64,000 nt of DNA from a virus, in the IMG/VR virus record IMGVR_UViG_3300025647_000019, positions 1 through 64,000 of that record; one strand, 5' to 3'. Positions 9,119-62,424 of the stretch are shown one piece after another (the stretch's first letter is position 1; every line of letters begins with the position of its first letter). A program made the translations under genes and the position numbers. The notes beneath the pieces are model-generated. The model saw only the letters and a program-made list of their open reading frames with translations, was not told where the DNA came from and searched no databases.

Positions 9119-9676
9119 ATGGCTTTAAATCCACATGCAGTTAATCTTGCGACAAAAGGAAGATTAGGAGTTGCAACTGTAACTGCTACTCGTGGAATTA
9201 TACCAGAAGTAGATCCAACAAATCCAGATAGAAATTTTTGCGATTATCCACATGCTGTTAATGTGGCAACCAAAGGTAATTTGTCCGATGCTCATATAAC
9301 TGGTGTTAAGGGTAAGATTCCAAAGATTTGCGACCTTACGCCTCCAATTCCAGGATATTGTGATTATCCTCACGCAGTTAAATTGGCAACAATGGGAAGA
9401 CTTGGCGCAACGGTTGGAACTGCAACAAGAGGTCGAGTATTAAGAATCTGTATTGAAGAATTCCCAGTAAGAACCACTGGGCCTGGAAGGCGTGGGTTCA
9501 GAAAAGAAGAAGAGAAAAAGAAATGTATTCGAATTACAGTATTTGCTTATGGTGAAAAGTTTGTATCTGAACATTGTGTTGAAAAGGATAGAATCGTTAA
9601 AGCTTCAGATGTTGAAGTCAGAGATATTGGAAATAAAAAGATTTCCATAAAATTAAAAGGAATTAAAAAATCATGA
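9119..9676 (+). CDS. Triplicated PHAV-motif protein (185 aa)
   Basis: Function unknown. Three copies of a unit of about 40 residues begin at residues 5, 44 and 84 with PHAV(N/K)(L/V)AT(K/M)G(R/N)L, followed by a TG/TRG turn and a proline-rich linker containing CDYPH. The C-terminal 60 residues are a basic segment (FRKEEEKKKC) followed by a predicted beta region. It overlaps the following exported gene by 4 bases. The repeats could each bind a symmetric partner; this is inference. Confidence 0.6.
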   Translation: MALNPHAVNLATKGRLGVATVTATRGIIPEVDPTNPDRNFCDYPHAVNVATKGNLSDAHITGVKGKIPKICDLTPPIPGYCDYPHAVKLATMGRLGATVGTATRGRVLRICIEEFPVRTTGPGRRGFRKEEEKKKCIRITVFAYGEKFVSEHCVEKDRIVKASDVEVRDIGNKKISIKLKGIKKS

Positions 9677-10104
9677 GAGAAGCTATAAAAGTGGCGTTGA
9701 TTAGTGCAATTGTATTTCTGATAGTTTCAGTTTTCGCAAACTGCTACGCACAATCATATGATATGGATCCAGAATATTATTTAAAAAATGAAAAACACTC
9801 TGGAAATTTCATTGCCTTTTCCAATATGGATTTGTGTGGAACATCATTGGGAAAGTTTTGTAATTTTAGTTTTCCAAACGAAGACCATAGGTCACATGAC
9901 CACACCTTTGTCATAAATGATCATGACCTAACCATTTATTGCTTTCAAAGAGACTTCGACAATGTTCTCAGATTGGTAAGTAGGCGTTATGGATTTTTCG
10001 ATGATTCATTTAATTACATAATAATTGAAGGAAAGGTTTACACAAAAGTAGAAGATAAAACATCCTTTCCAGGATGTCCAGTTCCATTGGGCTCAAAAAA
10101 ATAA
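9673..10104 (+). CDS. Exported hypothetical protein with Sec signal peptide
   Basis: Residues 1-27 form a classic signal peptide: MREAIK, a hydrophobic core (ALISAIVFLIVSVF), and a likely signal peptidase I site at CYA-QS. The mature domain (about 115 residues) contains several cysteines (LCGTSLGKFC and FPGCPVP) compatible with periplasmic disulfides, and an H/D cluster (DHRSHDHTF). No known fold is recognised. It closes the fibre operon and is followed by a new promoter at 10111. Possible roles include lysis or periplasmic exclusion; unproven. Confidence 0.6.
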   Translation: MREAIKVALISAIVFLIVSVFANCYAQSYDMDPEYYLKNEKHSGNFIAFSNMDLCGTSLGKFCNFSFPNEDHRSHDHTFVINDHDLTIYCFQRDFDNVLRLVSRRYGFFDDSFNYIIIEGKVYTKVEDKTSFPGCPVPLGSKK

Positions 10105-10166: not shown

Positions 10167-10203
10167 CAATTAGATCAATTTGACTAACAGAAAGGAGCCA
10201 ATC

Positions 10204-10740
10204 ATGGCACACAAAAGTCTAATTCAATGGGTAAACACATTTAACACTTCATCAACCTCTGGAGAACCAACTTGGTATTATTGGGACACTACCAATCTTC
10301 CAGTAGCAAATGACTATTTTCCAAGGTCTATTGAGAAGCAAATTGACGAGGCTTTCAATAAGCTTTGGGCAAATCGAAGCAATCCAATTATCAAGGATGA
10401 TGCAAAGCTTCCGAAGACGAACATCTATGAAGATGAAAGTGGATTGGTTATTCAAGCATTCGTTCCGTTTGTTCAGCCAGACGGAGATGAACTTAAGGTT
10501 ATTGTTGATCCTACGACAAATTCTATCAAGATTGAAGTCGAAGCACATCAACCAAAAGAAAAGCGAGAATACTATTTGAATGAAGTCAGCAGAACATCAT
10601 TCAAGAGGTCTTTCGCAATTGATAAAAAGTTCGACACAGATATTGCTACTTGCGATCACAAGGATGGAATTTTAACAATCAAGGTTCCATTTGAAGATGG
10701 AAGCAAAAAGCATACAATTTTTGAAATTACAAATGACTAA
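10204..10740 (+). CDS. hsp20: Small heat-shock protein (Hsp20/IbpA family)
   Basis: ATP-independent holdase chaperone. The 178-residue product has a variable N-terminal arm (W and F rich, residues 1-70), an alpha-crystallin domain (about 75-165) beginning with PKTNIYEDESGLVIQAF and ending with the typical CDHKDGILTIKVPF strand, and a short C-terminal tail. The start is ATG 10204, preceded by AAAGGAG; an in-frame TTG at 10180 lacks an RBS. It is a single-gene unit with its own promoter and a strong terminator. Hsp20 genes are known from marine T4-like phages and may protect virion assembly or host proteins. Confidence 0.88.
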   Translation: MAHKSLIQWVNTFNTSSTSGEPTWYYWDTTNLPVANDYFPRSIEKQIDEAFNKLWANRSNPIIKDDAKLPKTNIYEDESGLVIQAFVPFVQPDGDELKVIVDPTTNSIKIEVEAHQPKEKREYYLNEVSRTSFKRSFAIDKKFDTDIATCDHKDGILTIKVPFEDGSKKHTIFEITND

Positions 10741-13136: not shown

Positions 13137-14144
13137 ATGAAAACCATACTTTTAATTCTTAGCATATTCATTCTTGGTGGATGTGAATTAGAATATGGTT
13201 CAGAAAACAACACACTAGCAAACCCAATTCCTGAATGGGAACCAAGGGAATTCATTCGTGATGGTGACTATGGAATGGTTGATTTTGCTTTGGTGAAAGA
13301 CAACTCAAATCTGTATCATATAATTGGAATTGATGCATCTGTTGGACATCCTTGGAACCCTGAAAACTATAACAATCCTTATGGGTTTGTTCACGCAATT
13401 TCAACTGACCTTGTGAATTGGACAGAGGTTGATTCTATTATTGAACCACTTCGAAATAATTTCAATTACATTTGGGCACCAGATATTATGGAGATTGATG
13501 GAGTATATCATATGTGGTATACTGGTGTTCAGGTTCAGAATGACCCTGCTCAACATAGAGAGTTTGTTGTTCACTCAACATCAACTGACCTTTATGAATG
13601 GTCTGAACCTGAAATTGTTATGGATGGTTTTGATGATCCGAAAGACCTTATCAAGTGGGGCGATGGATCACCTTGGGCTAATGACTTGCGTGACCCACAT
13701 GTATTCACCTATATGACAACTGAATTGGGAAATCCTATTTATGGAATGACTATTTCCGTTCGAACAAATTCTGGTGATATGGGAATCGGCCTTGCTATTT
13801 GTGGAAGCGACCAAGGAGTTCCAGATAACAATTGGCAACTTTTGCAAATTCTAAATGAAACAATTGGAACTGGTGTCGGTGTTGAGTCTTCAACAACATT
13901 TAAATATGACAATAAGGATTATCTATTCTGGACAACTTGGGGATGGGCAGAACCCGAAAAGATTTGTATTTCAGTTGATGGAGAATTGAAATATGAAATT
14001 CCTAAAAAAGCATGTGAAATTTTAAAGGACGATGGTGAATATATCTTTGCTTGGTTAAGGGTGAATGATAATTATATTGGAGGATTTGATATTAAAATTG
14101 AAACAATGTTTTTCGAAGAAGAATTTCCTTACTTCCAAGAATAA
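13137..14144 (+). CDS. Lipoprotein with GH43/GH32-like beta-propeller
   Basis: A 335-residue exported lipoprotein: signal peptide with lipobox L13-G-G-C16. The body carries hallmarks of five-bladed propeller glycosidases: D49 in GMVDFAL, the blade motif STDLVNW (89-95) repeated as STDLYEW (149-155), WAPDI (113-117) followed by HMWYTG, RDPHVF (185-190) and E250 in GVGVESS. The GH43/GH32 superfamily uses D, D and E in equivalent places, so hydrolysis or binding of a surface polysaccharide is plausible; the substrate is unknown. Residue E17 after the lipid Cys does not signal inner-membrane retention. It heads an operon with two exported FN3-like genes. Confidence 0.7.
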   Translation: MKTILLILSIFILGGCELEYGSENNTLANPIPEWEPREFIRDGDYGMVDFALVKDNSNLYHIIGIDASVGHPWNPENYNNPYGFVHAISTDLVNWTEVDSIIEPLRNNFNYIWAPDIMEIDGVYHMWYTGVQVQNDPAQHREFVVHSTSTDLYEWSEPEIVMDGFDDPKDLIKWGDGSPWANDLRDPHVFTYMTTELGNPIYGMTISVRTNSGDMGIGLAICGSDQGVPDNNWQLLQILNETIGTGVGVESSTTFKYDNKDYLFWTTWGWAEPEKICISVDGELKYEIPKKACEILKDDGEYIFAWLRVNDNYIGGFDIKIETMFFEEEFPYFQE

Positions 14145-14169
14145 TGATATTTATCATTGGAGGTAAAAA

Positions 14170-14532
14170 ATGAAAAAGTGGATATTTATGGTTTTTACTT
14201 TTGTGGTTGTTATCTTACTTTCTGGTTGTAATAAATCCCCTTGTAAAGATTATGTACCAGGATCAATTGAAACTGGAAAAGTAAAGATCGCATGGACACC
14301 TCCAGAAAACAACACCCAAGATTTAACATATATGGTGCAATTATCAGAAAATGGTGAAGACTATTTTACAATAGGTTCTACCACAGACACATTTTATGTT
14401 TTGGATACAACTATGATTGACTATTGCAATTCGTATAGAGGCAGAGTTTATGCTGTAAATTCGTATGGTATATCTGGCCCTTTTTCGAGACAATCAAGAC
14501 CTTACACTCCAGTTCCAAACATAGAAAAATAG
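14170..14532 (+). CDS. Lipoprotein with fibronectin type III-like domain
   Basis: 120 residues: signal peptide with lipobox L17-S-G-C20, then one FN3-like sandwich (about 37-110) with KVKIAWTPPENN, LTYMVQLSENG and the late GRVYAVNSYGISGPF strand, typical of FN3 F-G edges. FN3 modules in phage and secreted glycosidases bind carbohydrates or proteins. A small hairpin, AATGAT-ATTT-ATCATT, lies at 14144-14159 just before the RBS GGAGG. Probably anchored with the upstream glycosidase-like lipoprotein. Confidence 0.65.
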   Translation: MKKWIFMVFTFVVVILLSGCNKSPCKDYVPGSIETGKVKIAWTPPENNTQDLTYMVQLSENGEDYFTIGSTTDTFYVLDTTMIDYCNSYRGRVYAVNSYGISGPFSRQSRPYTPVPNIEK

Positions 14533-14542
14533 GAGGAATGAC

Positions 14543-14905
14543 TTGAAAAAATTATTTTTAGGAATTATAATTGGAGTTCTTATCTTAGCTGGGACAGCTT
14601 TTTCACAGACAGTTTCATCTGTGAAATATACTTGGACTGCACCAACTGAAGGTTCTCCAGCAGTTGAATACACAGTTGAATATCGTGTTGATGGTGGAAA
14701 CTGGATTGCTGGTGGAACTGCACCCACAACTGAATTTACGTTTTTGAATGTTTTCGAATTTTTCAAAACTTATGAGGTTAGGGTTGCTGGTGTGGATATT
14801 ATAGGAAGGCAGGGACCATTTTCCCTAGTTTCTGACCCATATATGCCAGACCAAGGACCACCTGGAACACCAGGACAGCCAATTATTGTTGAAGTTATCG
14901 AATAA
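14543..14905 (+). CDS. Secreted fibronectin type III-like protein
   Basis: TTG start at 14543 with AGGAGG 8 bases upstream; an ATG at 14538 reads only two codons before a stop. The signal peptide spans residues 1-22 with a likely cut at AFS-QT and no lipobox Cys. One FN3-like domain follows (VKYTWTAPTEG, VEYTVEYRVDGG, YEVRVAGVDIIGRQGPF), similar in layout to the preceding lipoprotein, then a proline/glycine tail (GPPGTPGQP). Probably periplasmic or surface-associated and functionally linked to the two lipoproteins. Confidence 0.62.
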   Translation: MKKLFLGIIIGVLILAGTAFSQTVSSVKYTWTAPTEGSPAVEYTVEYRVDGGNWIAGGTAPTTEFTFLNVFEFFKTYEVRVAGVDIIGRQGPFSLVSDPYMPDQGPPGTPGQPIIVEVIE

Positions 14906-14911
14906 CATAAT

Positions 14912-14941
14912 TGGGGGAAATTAATTTTTCCCCCAGATTTT
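14912..14941 (+). terminator. Rho-independent terminator
   Basis: Stem TGGGGGAAA / TTTCCCCCA with loop TTAATT, followed by G and a T-rich tail that runs into the next promoter. Confidence 0.75.
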
Positions 14942-15607: not shown

Positions 15608-16564
15608 ATGACACAGGTTGAAATCAAGTCGGGTCTTTTCTATTCCCAAGAAATCAACGGCTCTTTCCCCCTCGCTAAGGAATATGTTAACTGTCATACT
15701 TCGAAGAAAGACGGTTACATTTGGATCATCCGCGATTCGAAGCAGATCAAGGTTCACGTGGGTCGAAACGATTTCAACATCATCACTGCTGAATCCCTGA
15801 AGTCCGATGCTGAGATTTCTCAGGAAATTGAGGATCGCTTCACTGTCATGGAAACTCTGGTCGATGGCGTTATCAATCGTACGATCAAGACAATGATTCT
15901 CTCCGGTGCTCCCGGTATCGGTAAGTCTTTCACCGTTGACGAAAAGCTGATGAAGGCTAAGCGTGAAGGTAAGATCCGTTTCAATTGTCTGACCGGTTCT
16001 TGTACTCCCATCGGTCTTTATCTCCAGCTCTGGAATCACCAAAATGAGGGCGATGTTCTGGTTCTGGATGACATTGATTCGATTTTCAATGATCAGGAAT
16101 CTCTGAACCTTCTGAAGGGTGCTCTGGATACTGGTCGTACTCGTCAGATTTCTTGGATGTCCGCTTCTAGCTTCCTTCGGGAAGAAGGTGTTGACAATAC
16201 CTTTGAATTCAAGGGTACGGTTATTTTTATCACCAATATGAATTTTGATGAAATGATTGAGAAGGGTACTAAGCTTTCTCCTCACTTCGCCGCTCTGGTT
16301 AACCGAGCTGTTTATCTCGATCTTGGGATTCACTCGACCCGAGAGATCATGGTTCGTATCAATCAGGTGGTTCGGAATACTACTATGCTCGAGGATCTTG
16401 GGGTTTCCAAGATGCATGCTGATGAGATTATGGATTGGATGGATTCTCATAAGGAAACTCTCCGGTCTCTTTCCATCCGCACTATCCTTCAGCTGGCTAG
16501 CTTCATCAAGACCAGCCCCCGTAGCTGGAAGATGATTGCCGAAGCTACAATGATCAAGAGGTAA
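15608..16564 (+). CDS. AAA+ ATPase (318 aa)
   Basis: P-loop ATPase with Walker A GAPGIGKS (100-107), Walker B VLVLDDID (150-157), sensor-1-like VIFITN (205-210) and a helical C-terminal lid (about 240-318). The first 95 residues are a separate beta-rich region. Family resemblance is to phage single-domain AAA+ proteins, not to gp44 clamp loaders. Codons are distinctly C/G-ending (CTG, CGT, ATC, GGT) compared with late genes, and RBS and promoter are strong, suggesting high early expression. Partner and role are unknown; replication, recombination or takeover are all possible. Confidence 0.75.
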   Translation: MTQVEIKSGLFYSQEINGSFPLAKEYVNCHTSKKDGYIWIIRDSKQIKVHVGRNDFNIITAESLKSDAEISQEIEDRFTVMETLVDGVINRTIKTMILSGAPGIGKSFTVDEKLMKAKREGKIRFNCLTGSCTPIGLYLQLWNHQNEGDVLVLDDIDSIFNDQESLNLLKGALDTGRTRQISWMSASSFLREEGVDNTFEFKGTVIFITNMNFDEMIEKGTKLSPHFAALVNRAVYLDLGIHSTREIMVRINQVVRNTTMLEDLGVSKMHADEIMDWMDSHKETLRSLSIRTILQLASFIKTSPRSWKMIAEATMIKR

Positions 16565-48884: not shown

Positions 48885-49894
48885 AAAAACGAAGAATAGT
48901 TCTAATAGACTATTACAATCTCTTTATAAGAAATTGGCAAGTTTGCCCTTTGACTGATGAAAATGAAGAGCATTTTGGGGCAGTCGTTGGTAGTTTAAAT
49001 TCTATTAAATCCTTTATCAAGAAAACAAATCCCACTGATGTATTCGTTATAACAGACGGGGAAAATGCTGCATTACGTAGAAAAATGATGATGAAGGAAT
49101 ATAAAGCTAATAGAAAAAAGGAATGGGCCCGAGGAGCTTGTCGGGCCTATGACTTTTTAAATGAACAAGATCAAAAAGACAATTGGACATTTCAGAAAAG
49201 AAGACTAGATGAATATCTTTCTGTCTTGCCTATAAAAACTATTTCGATTCCATATCTTGAAGCAGATGATGTTATAGCTCAAATTTCTAATGTAATGAAT
49301 AATGAGGAAACTCAAATAGTAATTTATTCATCAGACGCTGATTATCAACAGCTAATAAATGAAAATGTTTTTTGTTATAATCCCATCACAAAAAAATTAT
49401 TGAATGAAGAGAAATTTTTTAAGAAACACGGCATCCCGCCATATAATTATATCTATCTAAAGTGCATCCAAGGGGACGCTTCAGATAATGTTACAGGAAT
49501 AAAAGGAATTGGTCCTAAAACTCTAATAAAAATGGTACCGGAAATAGTTGATACAAGAATAGATTCAATTCAAGATTTTTTAGAAATATGTCAACATGCA
49601 ATTGATAGTGGATCTAAAGTCTATACAAAATCAATGCTGAATAAATTCAAATTATTGATAGAAAATGAAAGTAAATTACAATTAAATTATAATATAATGC
49701 AATTATCAGATGTTGATATTTCTCAGCAATCTAAGGATTTAATAAATCGGGTTATTGAAGAAGATGTTACACCCTTTAGTAAAACTAAATTAAGAGCTAT
49801 GTTTTATAATGATGGAATGTATAATAACGTAAAATATCTCACTGATTGGTCAACTATGTTTAGTAAATTAACATTATATGGGAGAAATAAATGA
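48881..49894 (+). CDS. rnh: RNase H / 5'-3' exonuclease (FEN-like)
   Basis: 337 residues, near T4 RNase H (305). TTG start overlapping the previous gene by 4 bases. N-terminal IVLIDYYNLFIR with catalytic D10, the conserved ADYQQ-like SSDADYQQLI, EADDVIA and the helix-three-turn-helix GDASDNVTGIKGIGPKTL. These metal-dependent enzymes remove RNA primers from lagging strands. Lysine-rich in the arch region (KKEWARGACRAYD). It belongs to the replication operon with uvsX and gp41. Confidence 0.85.
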   Translation: MKKRRIVLIDYYNLFIRNWQVCPLTDENEEHFGAVVGSLNSIKSFIKKTNPTDVFVITDGENAALRRKMMMKEYKANRKKEWARGACRAYDFLNEQDQKDNWTFQKRRLDEYLSVLPIKTISIPYLEADDVIAQISNVMNNEETQIVIYSSDADYQQLINENVFCYNPITKKLLNEEKFFKKHGIPPYNYIYLKCIQGDASDNVTGIKGIGPKTLIKMVPEIVDTRIDSIQDFLEICQHAIDSGSKVYTKSMLNKFKLLIENESKLQLNYNIMQLSDVDISQQSKDLINRVIEEDVTPFSKTKLRAMFYNDGMYNNVKYLTDWSTMFSKLTLYGRNK

Positions 49895-50757
49895 AAAATA
49901 AAATCTTAGTTTTTTTAAATAGTTATGACGGGGGAACTTTTTTGGGTATGTTGATATTAATAATTTGTCTTTTGTTTTATCATAACTGTTCAGCTCAAGA
50001 AATATCAGGGGATCTTTCAATCTTGGGAAATATTGATGTTACAAATAAAAGCGAAGATCCAAATTCCCATTTACAATATTTTGGGGGAACATTAGATTCC
50101 GATAATGCTTTTGTTTCAGCTTCAATGGACAGTACTGAAACTTTAAAATTACGAGAAGCTTATATTAAGTTTAATTATGACGGATTATTAATTCATATCG
50201 GTAAAGTTGCTGTTCCATTTGGTTATATGAATTTGGATGATCCGTCAACTAGCGTATTTATTTTGTATCCTCGAAAAGATTATCGTGACTATGGTTTACA
50301 TTTATCTACTATGTATGATATAGTAAAGTTTGAAGGGGCATATATTGATCACGCCAATTATAGCATTAAATCAAAATTAATATTATTGGGCGGGGGAGAA
50401 GTTATATCGATAAGTTATGCAAATAGTGAATATTTGAAGGAGTTAATACTTAATAATGAATTTTATTTTTCCTCCCTATTATTCAATATGTCGAATGTAT
50501 TAGAATGGTGTCCAGATAATGGTGATTTTTGGATCAGATCAGTATTTGCCCCGGGCATATTTGATGTCTTAGGTTTAACATTAGGATATTATCATTTAGA
50601 TTATATTGAACAAACATTACAAGATTATGATTTAACTGGTGATGCTTGGACTTATGGATGTTATTTGGATTTTTCAACCCATGCAACTGTATCAACAGAA
50701 TGGGTCTTTGGTGAAAGTATTAATAAACCAACAGTTAAACTTGTTGCAAAATTTTAA
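49891..50757 (+). CDS. Phage-encoded outer-membrane porin-like barrel
   Basis: 288 residues. The N-terminal signal peptide (hydrophobic core MLILIICLLFY; probable cut at NCSA-QE, residues 35-36) is followed by alternating amphipathic strands: LKLREAYIKFNYDGLLIHIG, GKVAVPFGYMN, DYGLHLSTMYDIVKFEGAYI. It ends VKLVAKF, with the terminal Phe recognised by the BAM machinery. The pattern resembles Oprl/OprO-like porins. It overlaps rnh by 4 bases and is embedded in the replication operon. Possible superinfection exclusion or envelope permeability role. Confidence 0.7.
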   Translation: MKNKILVFLNSYDGGTFLGMLILIICLLFYHNCSAQEISGDLSILGNIDVTNKSEDPNSHLQYFGGTLDSDNAFVSASMDSTETLKLREAYIKFNYDGLLIHIGKVAVPFGYMNLDDPSTSVFILYPRKDYRDYGLHLSTMYDIVKFEGAYIDHANYSIKSKLILLGGGEVISISYANSEYLKELILNNEFYFSSLLFNMSNVLEWCPDNGDFWIRSVFAPGIFDVLGLTLGYYHLDYIEQTLQDYDLTGDAWTYGCYLDFSTHATVSTEWVFGESINKPTVKLVAKF

Positions 50758-61833: not shown

Positions 61834-62424
61834 ATGAATATTTGGGTATTTTTTGAAATATTTAATAGATTAAATAAAAGGCTTAGAAAACTTATGTCAA
61901 AAAACGAGATTGAAATACAAACATTAAAATTGGAAAGGAATCCAAGAAACCCCAATTGGGGTCAAAGAGATATTTCTTTGATAAATAAAATAATAGTTCA
62001 TCAAGAACTTGGAGAAGGAACAACTGAGCAAGTTCACGCATATCATATAAGTAAAGAATCACATTTAAAACCAGGTGTTGGAGCTCCGGCCATAGCATAC
62101 CATTTTACAATTGAAAAAGATGGAACTATATATAAAGTAAATGATCTTACAGATGTCACTTGGCATTGTGCAGGAGAAAATCTTCAAAGCATTGGAATAA
62201 TGGCTGTGGGAGATTTTGCATGTAAAGATAATATTAATGGAAAGGCCCCAACACAAGAGCAATTGAAATCTTTAAGATTATTGTTAAATTATTTAACCGA
62301 TAAATATATGATTCTTAAAGCTAATGTTTATGGGCATAAAGACTTTGGGAAAGAATCTTGCCCGGGATTTGTTTTATATGATTTTGTTCAAGATTATAAA
62401 AAAGAAAGCTTTAATGTAGTATGA
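61834..62424 (+). CDS. N-acetylmuramoyl-L-alanine amidase (endolysin)
   Basis: 196 residues with amidase_2/PGRP-type zinc ligands: H56 in IIVHQE, H168 and C176 in GHKDFGKESCPG, and Y89 in AYHFTIEKDGTIY. Strands WHCAG and LQSIGIMAVGDF complete the core. It cuts the peptide stem from muramic acid in peptidoglycan. The first 20 residues (MNIWVFFEIFNRL) are hydrophobic and aromatic but lack a clear signal peptide. RBS AAGGAATAATAAG. Overlaps the next gene by 4 bases. Confidence 0.85.
   Translation: MNIWVFFEIFNRLNKRLRKLMSKNEIEIQTLKLERNPRNPNWGQRDISLINKIIVHQELGEGTTEQVHAYHISKESHLKPGVGAPAIAYHFTIEKDGTIYKVNDLTDVTWHCAGENLQSIGIMAVGDFACKDNINGKAPTQEQLKSLRLLLNYLTDKYMILKANVYGHKDFGKESCPGFVLYDFVQDYKKESFNVV

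Follow-up and report, generated by a model that had tools for sequence, protein, structure and literature searches.

The phage gene P0001 encodes an exported protein with the five-bladed propeller fold of the GH43/GH32 clan, in which three catalytic acids are invariant across five bacterial relatives. It is probably a glycosidase, active by prediction. No homologue was found in the record of a relative phage that carries the two fibronectin type III (FN3)-like genes lying next to it. We consider that there is an even chance that P0001 is an envelope-anchored, glycan-cutting enzyme remodelling the surface of the infected cell, the FN3 pair being a separate binding module.

A unit of three exported proteins

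The window, i.e. the whole stretch of 64,000 nucleotides analysed here, spans bases 1-64000 of a linear virus record of 93,964 bases (IMGVR_UViG_3300025647_000019), itself a fragment. The record is that of a large T4-like myovirus with a GC content of 33.6%, whose major capsid protein shares 37% identity with its counterparts in Microcystis phage Mel-JY01 and Flavobacterium phage immuto. A Shine-Dalgarno-like motif was found for 78% of the ORFs, against 16% in the control; such a high share is a mild argument against a typical Bacteroidota host.

Three consecutive exported proteins had been announced at positions 13137-14905 in the earlier note, and this description was confirmed: P0001, P0002 and P0003 lie there on the + strand, each behind a good ribosome-binding site, and carry the expected lipoboxes or signal peptide. 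They are the last genes ahead of a terminator-like hairpin, and their features are the following:

13137..14144, + strand: P0001, 335-aa predicted lipid-anchored five-bladed-propeller glycoside hydrolase of clan GH43/GH32 (Pfam, alignment, AF2/Foldseek)
13137..13184, + strand: lipoprotein signal peptide of P0001, with lipobox LGGC, predicted lipidated Cys16 and Glu at +2 (sequence)
13281..13283, + strand: Asp49 of P0001 (blade 1), predicted to be the general base (the same residue in all six rows; equivalence to the GH43 base suggested by blade position)
13692..13694, + strand: Asp186 of P0001 in LRDPHVF, predicted pKa modulator or transition-state Asp, blade 3 (invariant; matched to the DP motif in the GH43 arabinanases 6a8h/3d60)
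13884..13886, + strand: Glu250 of P0001 (GVESS, blade 4), predicted to be the general acid (invariant; matched to the Glu of the IEAP motif in GH43 arabinanases)
14170..14532, + strand: P0002, lipoprotein with a single FN3 domain (lipobox LSGC) and two more cysteines, 25 and 86 (sequence, model, relative-phage alignment)
14543..14905, + strand: P0003, single-FN3 protein with a cleavable-type signal peptide and a TTG start (sequence, paralogy with P0002)
14911..14936, + strand: intrinsic-terminator-like hairpin at the end of the unit (in the relative phage, the pair is followed by a comparable hairpin, L039:19060-19085)

Among about 134 ORFs, a crude scan revealed lipoboxes in P0001 and P0002 only, and five convincing signal-bearing ORFs were counted in all. 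Three adjacent genes among these five would occur in about 0.35% of random orders, duplication accounting for two of the three. A fourth exported protein is encoded nearby, at 9673-10104 of the window (143 aa, strong signal peptide, no Pfam family), and the ORF at 10180-10740 resembles, by eye only, a small heat-shock (Hsp20-type) protein. Rfam gave no match in the 9-17 kb region, and PADLOC recognized no defence family among the six ORFs checked. The earlier view that P0001 is made by the phage without being part of the virion agrees with its export signal and with the lack of any obvious virion role; given the lipoboxes and signal peptides, a virion-protein reading of P0001-P0003 is unlikely.

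No close homologue of the three proteins was detected among 50,697 phage records. In IMG/VR scans, the only match was an identical contig, besides a short and weak match of P0003 in a second contig (L006), where the FN3 matches lie inside open frames of more than 1,200 aa, and one partial match (29%) of the A3 pattern (L027); the A4 search found nothing. Since the two IMG/VR copies show 100% identity over 17 kb, they belong to the same virus population and, within phages, P0001 is known from one virus population only. Its codon usage resembles that of the phage core.

Family, fold and catalytic residues of P0001

The N-terminal signal of P0001 ends in the lipobox ILGGC, as in bacterial lipoproteins, and lipidation is predicted. 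The protein scores above the Pfam cut-off for GH43 (42.2 bits for a cut-off of 32.2, the matched region being just 89-162) as well as for GH32N (30.3 bits for a cut-off of 22.1, residues 73-193), so that its exact family is unsettled. By comparison, it scored 27.6 bits against the NCBIfam mannobiose phosphorylase (GH130), for a cut-off of 450, and its best match among solved sequences was a 1,2-beta-oligomannan phosphorylase, aligned only between residues 51 and 164.

The AF2 model of P0001, of moderate quality (pLDDT 71, pTM 0.77, with residues 11-45 and 166-181 poorly modelled), is a propeller. The matches listed by Foldseek are five-bladed propellers of the GH32, GH43, GH117 and GH130 types and a levansucrase, with E-values down to 1.4e-11, the best being GH32 and GH43 enzymes. 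The lipobox-bearing five-bladed propeller with GH43/GH32-like motifs described from the sequence is thus upheld by the Pfam scores and by the predicted structure.

The search for bacterial relatives, conducted in 199 and 297 genomes from two phyla, returned only short or distant matches before L020, a better and longer relative obtained from the Bacteroidota genomes, whose own relatives include L023-L026. P0001 and these five bacterial proteins, which are 23-26% identical to it, were aligned over their full length, and all six rows match GH43. Asp49, Asp186 and Glu250 are invariant in the six rows. First, the profile of this alignment matches Asp186 and Glu250 to the DP and E-P motifs found in GH43 arabinanases, a group for which PDB titles name the catalytic mutants D147N (6a8i) and E201A (6f1g). 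Secondly, Asp49 was matched to the GH43 base by its blade-1 position only. The alignment thus indicates an intact Asp/Asp/Glu triad, with the putative base, pKa modulator and acid on blades 1, 3 and 4, as in GH43. Thirdly, the proline of the E-S-P motif is replaced by a serine in P0001 (E-S-S).

GH32 enzymes are characterized by an NDPNG nucleophile motif and an EC(P/V) acid motif. Neither was found in P0001, which displays MVDF and VESS instead and has the RDP motif alone. Judged on these motifs, GH43 is a better fit than GH32.

The FN3 pair and the relative phage

P0002 harbors the lipobox LLSGC, characteristic of a lipoprotein signal, and its lipidation is predicted, while P0003 has an SPase-I-type signal (AFS|Q) and a TTG start located behind AGGAGG. 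The two proteins are paralogues (30% identity, E 2e-10). Both fall just under the Pfam fn3 cut-off of 25 bits, with 21.7 bits (E 2e-4) for P0002 and 24.4 bits (E 3e-5) for P0003. The best PDB matches of the P0002 model (pLDDT 72) are mostly FN3 domains (E 3e-5 to about 1e-3). The FN3 beta-sandwich assignment, predicted from the model for P0002 and from paralogy for P0003, agrees with the FN3-like lipoprotein and FN3-like secreted protein initially reported. P0002 was also compared with the phrog_1119 Cor profile, giving a weak match (E 0.029) limited to residues 1-39, mainly the signal region; by this comparison P0002 does not belong to the Llp/Cor family, no similarity to Cor extending past the signal peptide.

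Among the relatives, the closest one represented by a long contig is IMGVR_UViG_3300023210_000014, a 114,796-base record whose terminase is 72% identical. This phage carries both FN3 genes, in unchanged order, with matching export signals and with a terminator-like hairpin behind them. Its lipoprotein is 36% identical to P0002 in a MAFFT alignment (32% by BLAST) and its signal-peptide protein 46% identical to P0003. The additional cysteines of P0002 (25 and 86) are conserved in the relative's counterpart, which is consistent with a periplasmic disulphide. Just upstream of the FN3 pair in this phage lies an ORF taken by eye as an ATP-dependent DNA ligase. No P0001 homologue was found in the 114,796 bases of the record, both phage records being possibly short of some genes. 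Counterparts were likewise absent from this record for a 13-kb glycan region located at 71,244-84,018 of the window's record and for the ORF at 49891-50757, which encodes a 288-aa protein with an N-terminal signal, a beta pattern that looks porin-like by eye and no Pfam family.

The three genes had been presented as a single enzyme set, a claim that is not supported, as the relative phage keeps the FN3 pair and lacks the glycosidase. It also lacks the glycan cluster and the porin-like ORF. From this pattern, the FN3 pair appears to be an older module and the glycosidase a lineage-specific cargo. With two genomes to compare, the glycosidase may nevertheless have been lost in the relative and not gained here. 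The more distant records that were searched with a profile of the FN3 pair did not contain it, and the module is regarded as clade-restricted. Two other differences or likenesses between the records were observed. The P-loop (GAPGIGKS) ORF at 15608-16564 of the window, with 45% GC and a GC3 of 51% in a 34% GC genome, is 78% identical in the relative, and 17 tRNA genes lie at L039:2560-6885 of the relative's record whereas none were found in that of the window.

Possible roles and comparison with known systems

In the proposed mechanism, the infected cell would secrete P0001, and its lipid anchor would fix the predicted enzyme to a membrane, probably the outer one since the residue at Cys+2 is a glutamate and not an aspartate. 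Its targets there would be glycans on the cell envelope or immediately beyond it. Its most likely role would be to remodel the surface glycan of the infected cell, either alone or together with the glycan region (L003/L004). This region is rich in biosynthesis genes, encoding a glycosyltransferase 2, a PfkB kinase, dTDP-sugar and NAD-dependent epimerases, a DegT aminotransferase and an FkbM methyltransferase, as well as E1-type TPP enzymes and a radical SAM protein. Its co-occurrence with P0001 makes glycan remodelling a sensible, if unproved, role. In the record, some 57 kb separate the two, and a functional link between them is conjecture. Comparable epimerases and aminotransferases are encoded by other phages, those with DegT being mostly cyanophages, and phage glycan genes as such are already known. 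An altered surface glycan could change the adsorption of competing phages or the later release of progeny, two possible effects that the earlier note had also put forward. P0002 and P0003 would be periplasmic or outer-membrane-facing FN3 domains. They would probably bind an envelope partner, and might mask a receptor in the manner of the unrelated Llp and Cor lipoproteins. An extended version, in which the host's sugar coat is swapped from two sides, P0001 stripping the old glycan from outside while the cluster builds another one, and in which the FN3 pair masks a receptor so that competing phages are kept out, seems to us unlikely.

The main rival is a nutritional one, in which P0001 degrades an environmental polysaccharide and the infected cell gains sugar. 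The neighbourhoods of the bacterial relatives were read for three of them and all contain polysaccharide-degradation genes: SusC-type, SusD-type and DUF2961 genes around L020, a pectic acid lyase near L023, an alpha-fucosidase and a sulfatase near L026. These contexts support a link to polysaccharide degradation and, since they differ (Sus locus, pectin, fucose/sulfate), do not allow a substrate to be named. Some relatives (L023, L024) also have lipobox-type N-termini, and virus-encoded glycoside hydrolases have been reported, one of which (GH5) has a confirmed activity (PMC6786970). However, the examined parts of the phage revealed no recognizable transporter or other polysaccharide-degrading partner, and the sugar genes that were recognized are biosynthetic. 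We hold this explanation to be possible, though doubtful.

P0001 might otherwise trim capsule or slime late in infection, allowing the progeny to diffuse away. The export signal and lipobox would bring it to the right site, but its gene does not adjoin the amidase gene (61834-62424), and the search for T4-type late promoters was uninformative, with too few TATAAATA sites to place the timing of expression; we regard such a release function as improbable. It is slightly harder still to see P0001 as a non-catalytic, lectin-like propeller masking surface glycans, as the loss of the proline in the E-S-P motif would allow, when all three catalytic acids are kept at 23-26% identity. Finally, a spanin-like (inner/outer membrane) lysis pair, instead of a binding module, is suggested by a lipoprotein adjoining a second exported protein and conserved with it, but is highly improbable for two paralogous single FN3-like beta domains with no coiled coil visible by eye and a cleavable-type signal on P0003.

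The preferred reading, that of an anchored enzyme acting on the infected cell's surface, can be set against several known systems. The exported GH43/GH32-like proteins of Bacteroidota (L020, L023-L026) align with P0001 over their full length and share its catalytic acids and an export signal; they are bacterial, only 23-26% identical and located in polysaccharide loci, whereas the phage gene stands beside the FN3 pair. The GH43 arabinanases 6a8h and 3d60 have the same five-bladed propeller with aligned DP and E-P motifs, but are only about 14-16% identical to P0001 in the structural alignment. Virus-encoded glycoside hydrolases, known from soil and other metagenomes as auxiliary metabolic genes, are like P0001 carbohydrate-active enzymes in a virus-like context; the characterized example is a GH5 endomannanase (PMC6786970), whereas P0001 is of a predicted lipid-anchored GH43/32 type, for which our searches yielded no virus example. 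T5 Llp demonstrates that phage lipoproteins can act by receptor masking and superinfection exclusion, and both Llp and Cor carry an intramolecular disulphide (PMC9586334). P0002 is also a small phage-made lipoprotein that may have a disulphide, but differs from them by its FN3 domain and its paired second protein. This exported FN3 pair forms a small clade-restricted family that lends itself to simple tests.

Phage tail depolymerases do their work before infection, from the outside. If our reading is true, a lipid-anchored glycosidase displayed by the host would represent a different use of depolymerase chemistry, on or around the infected cell, and, if P0001 alters the surface, it would provide an enzymatic means of superinfection exclusion or of progeny release that can be tested directly.
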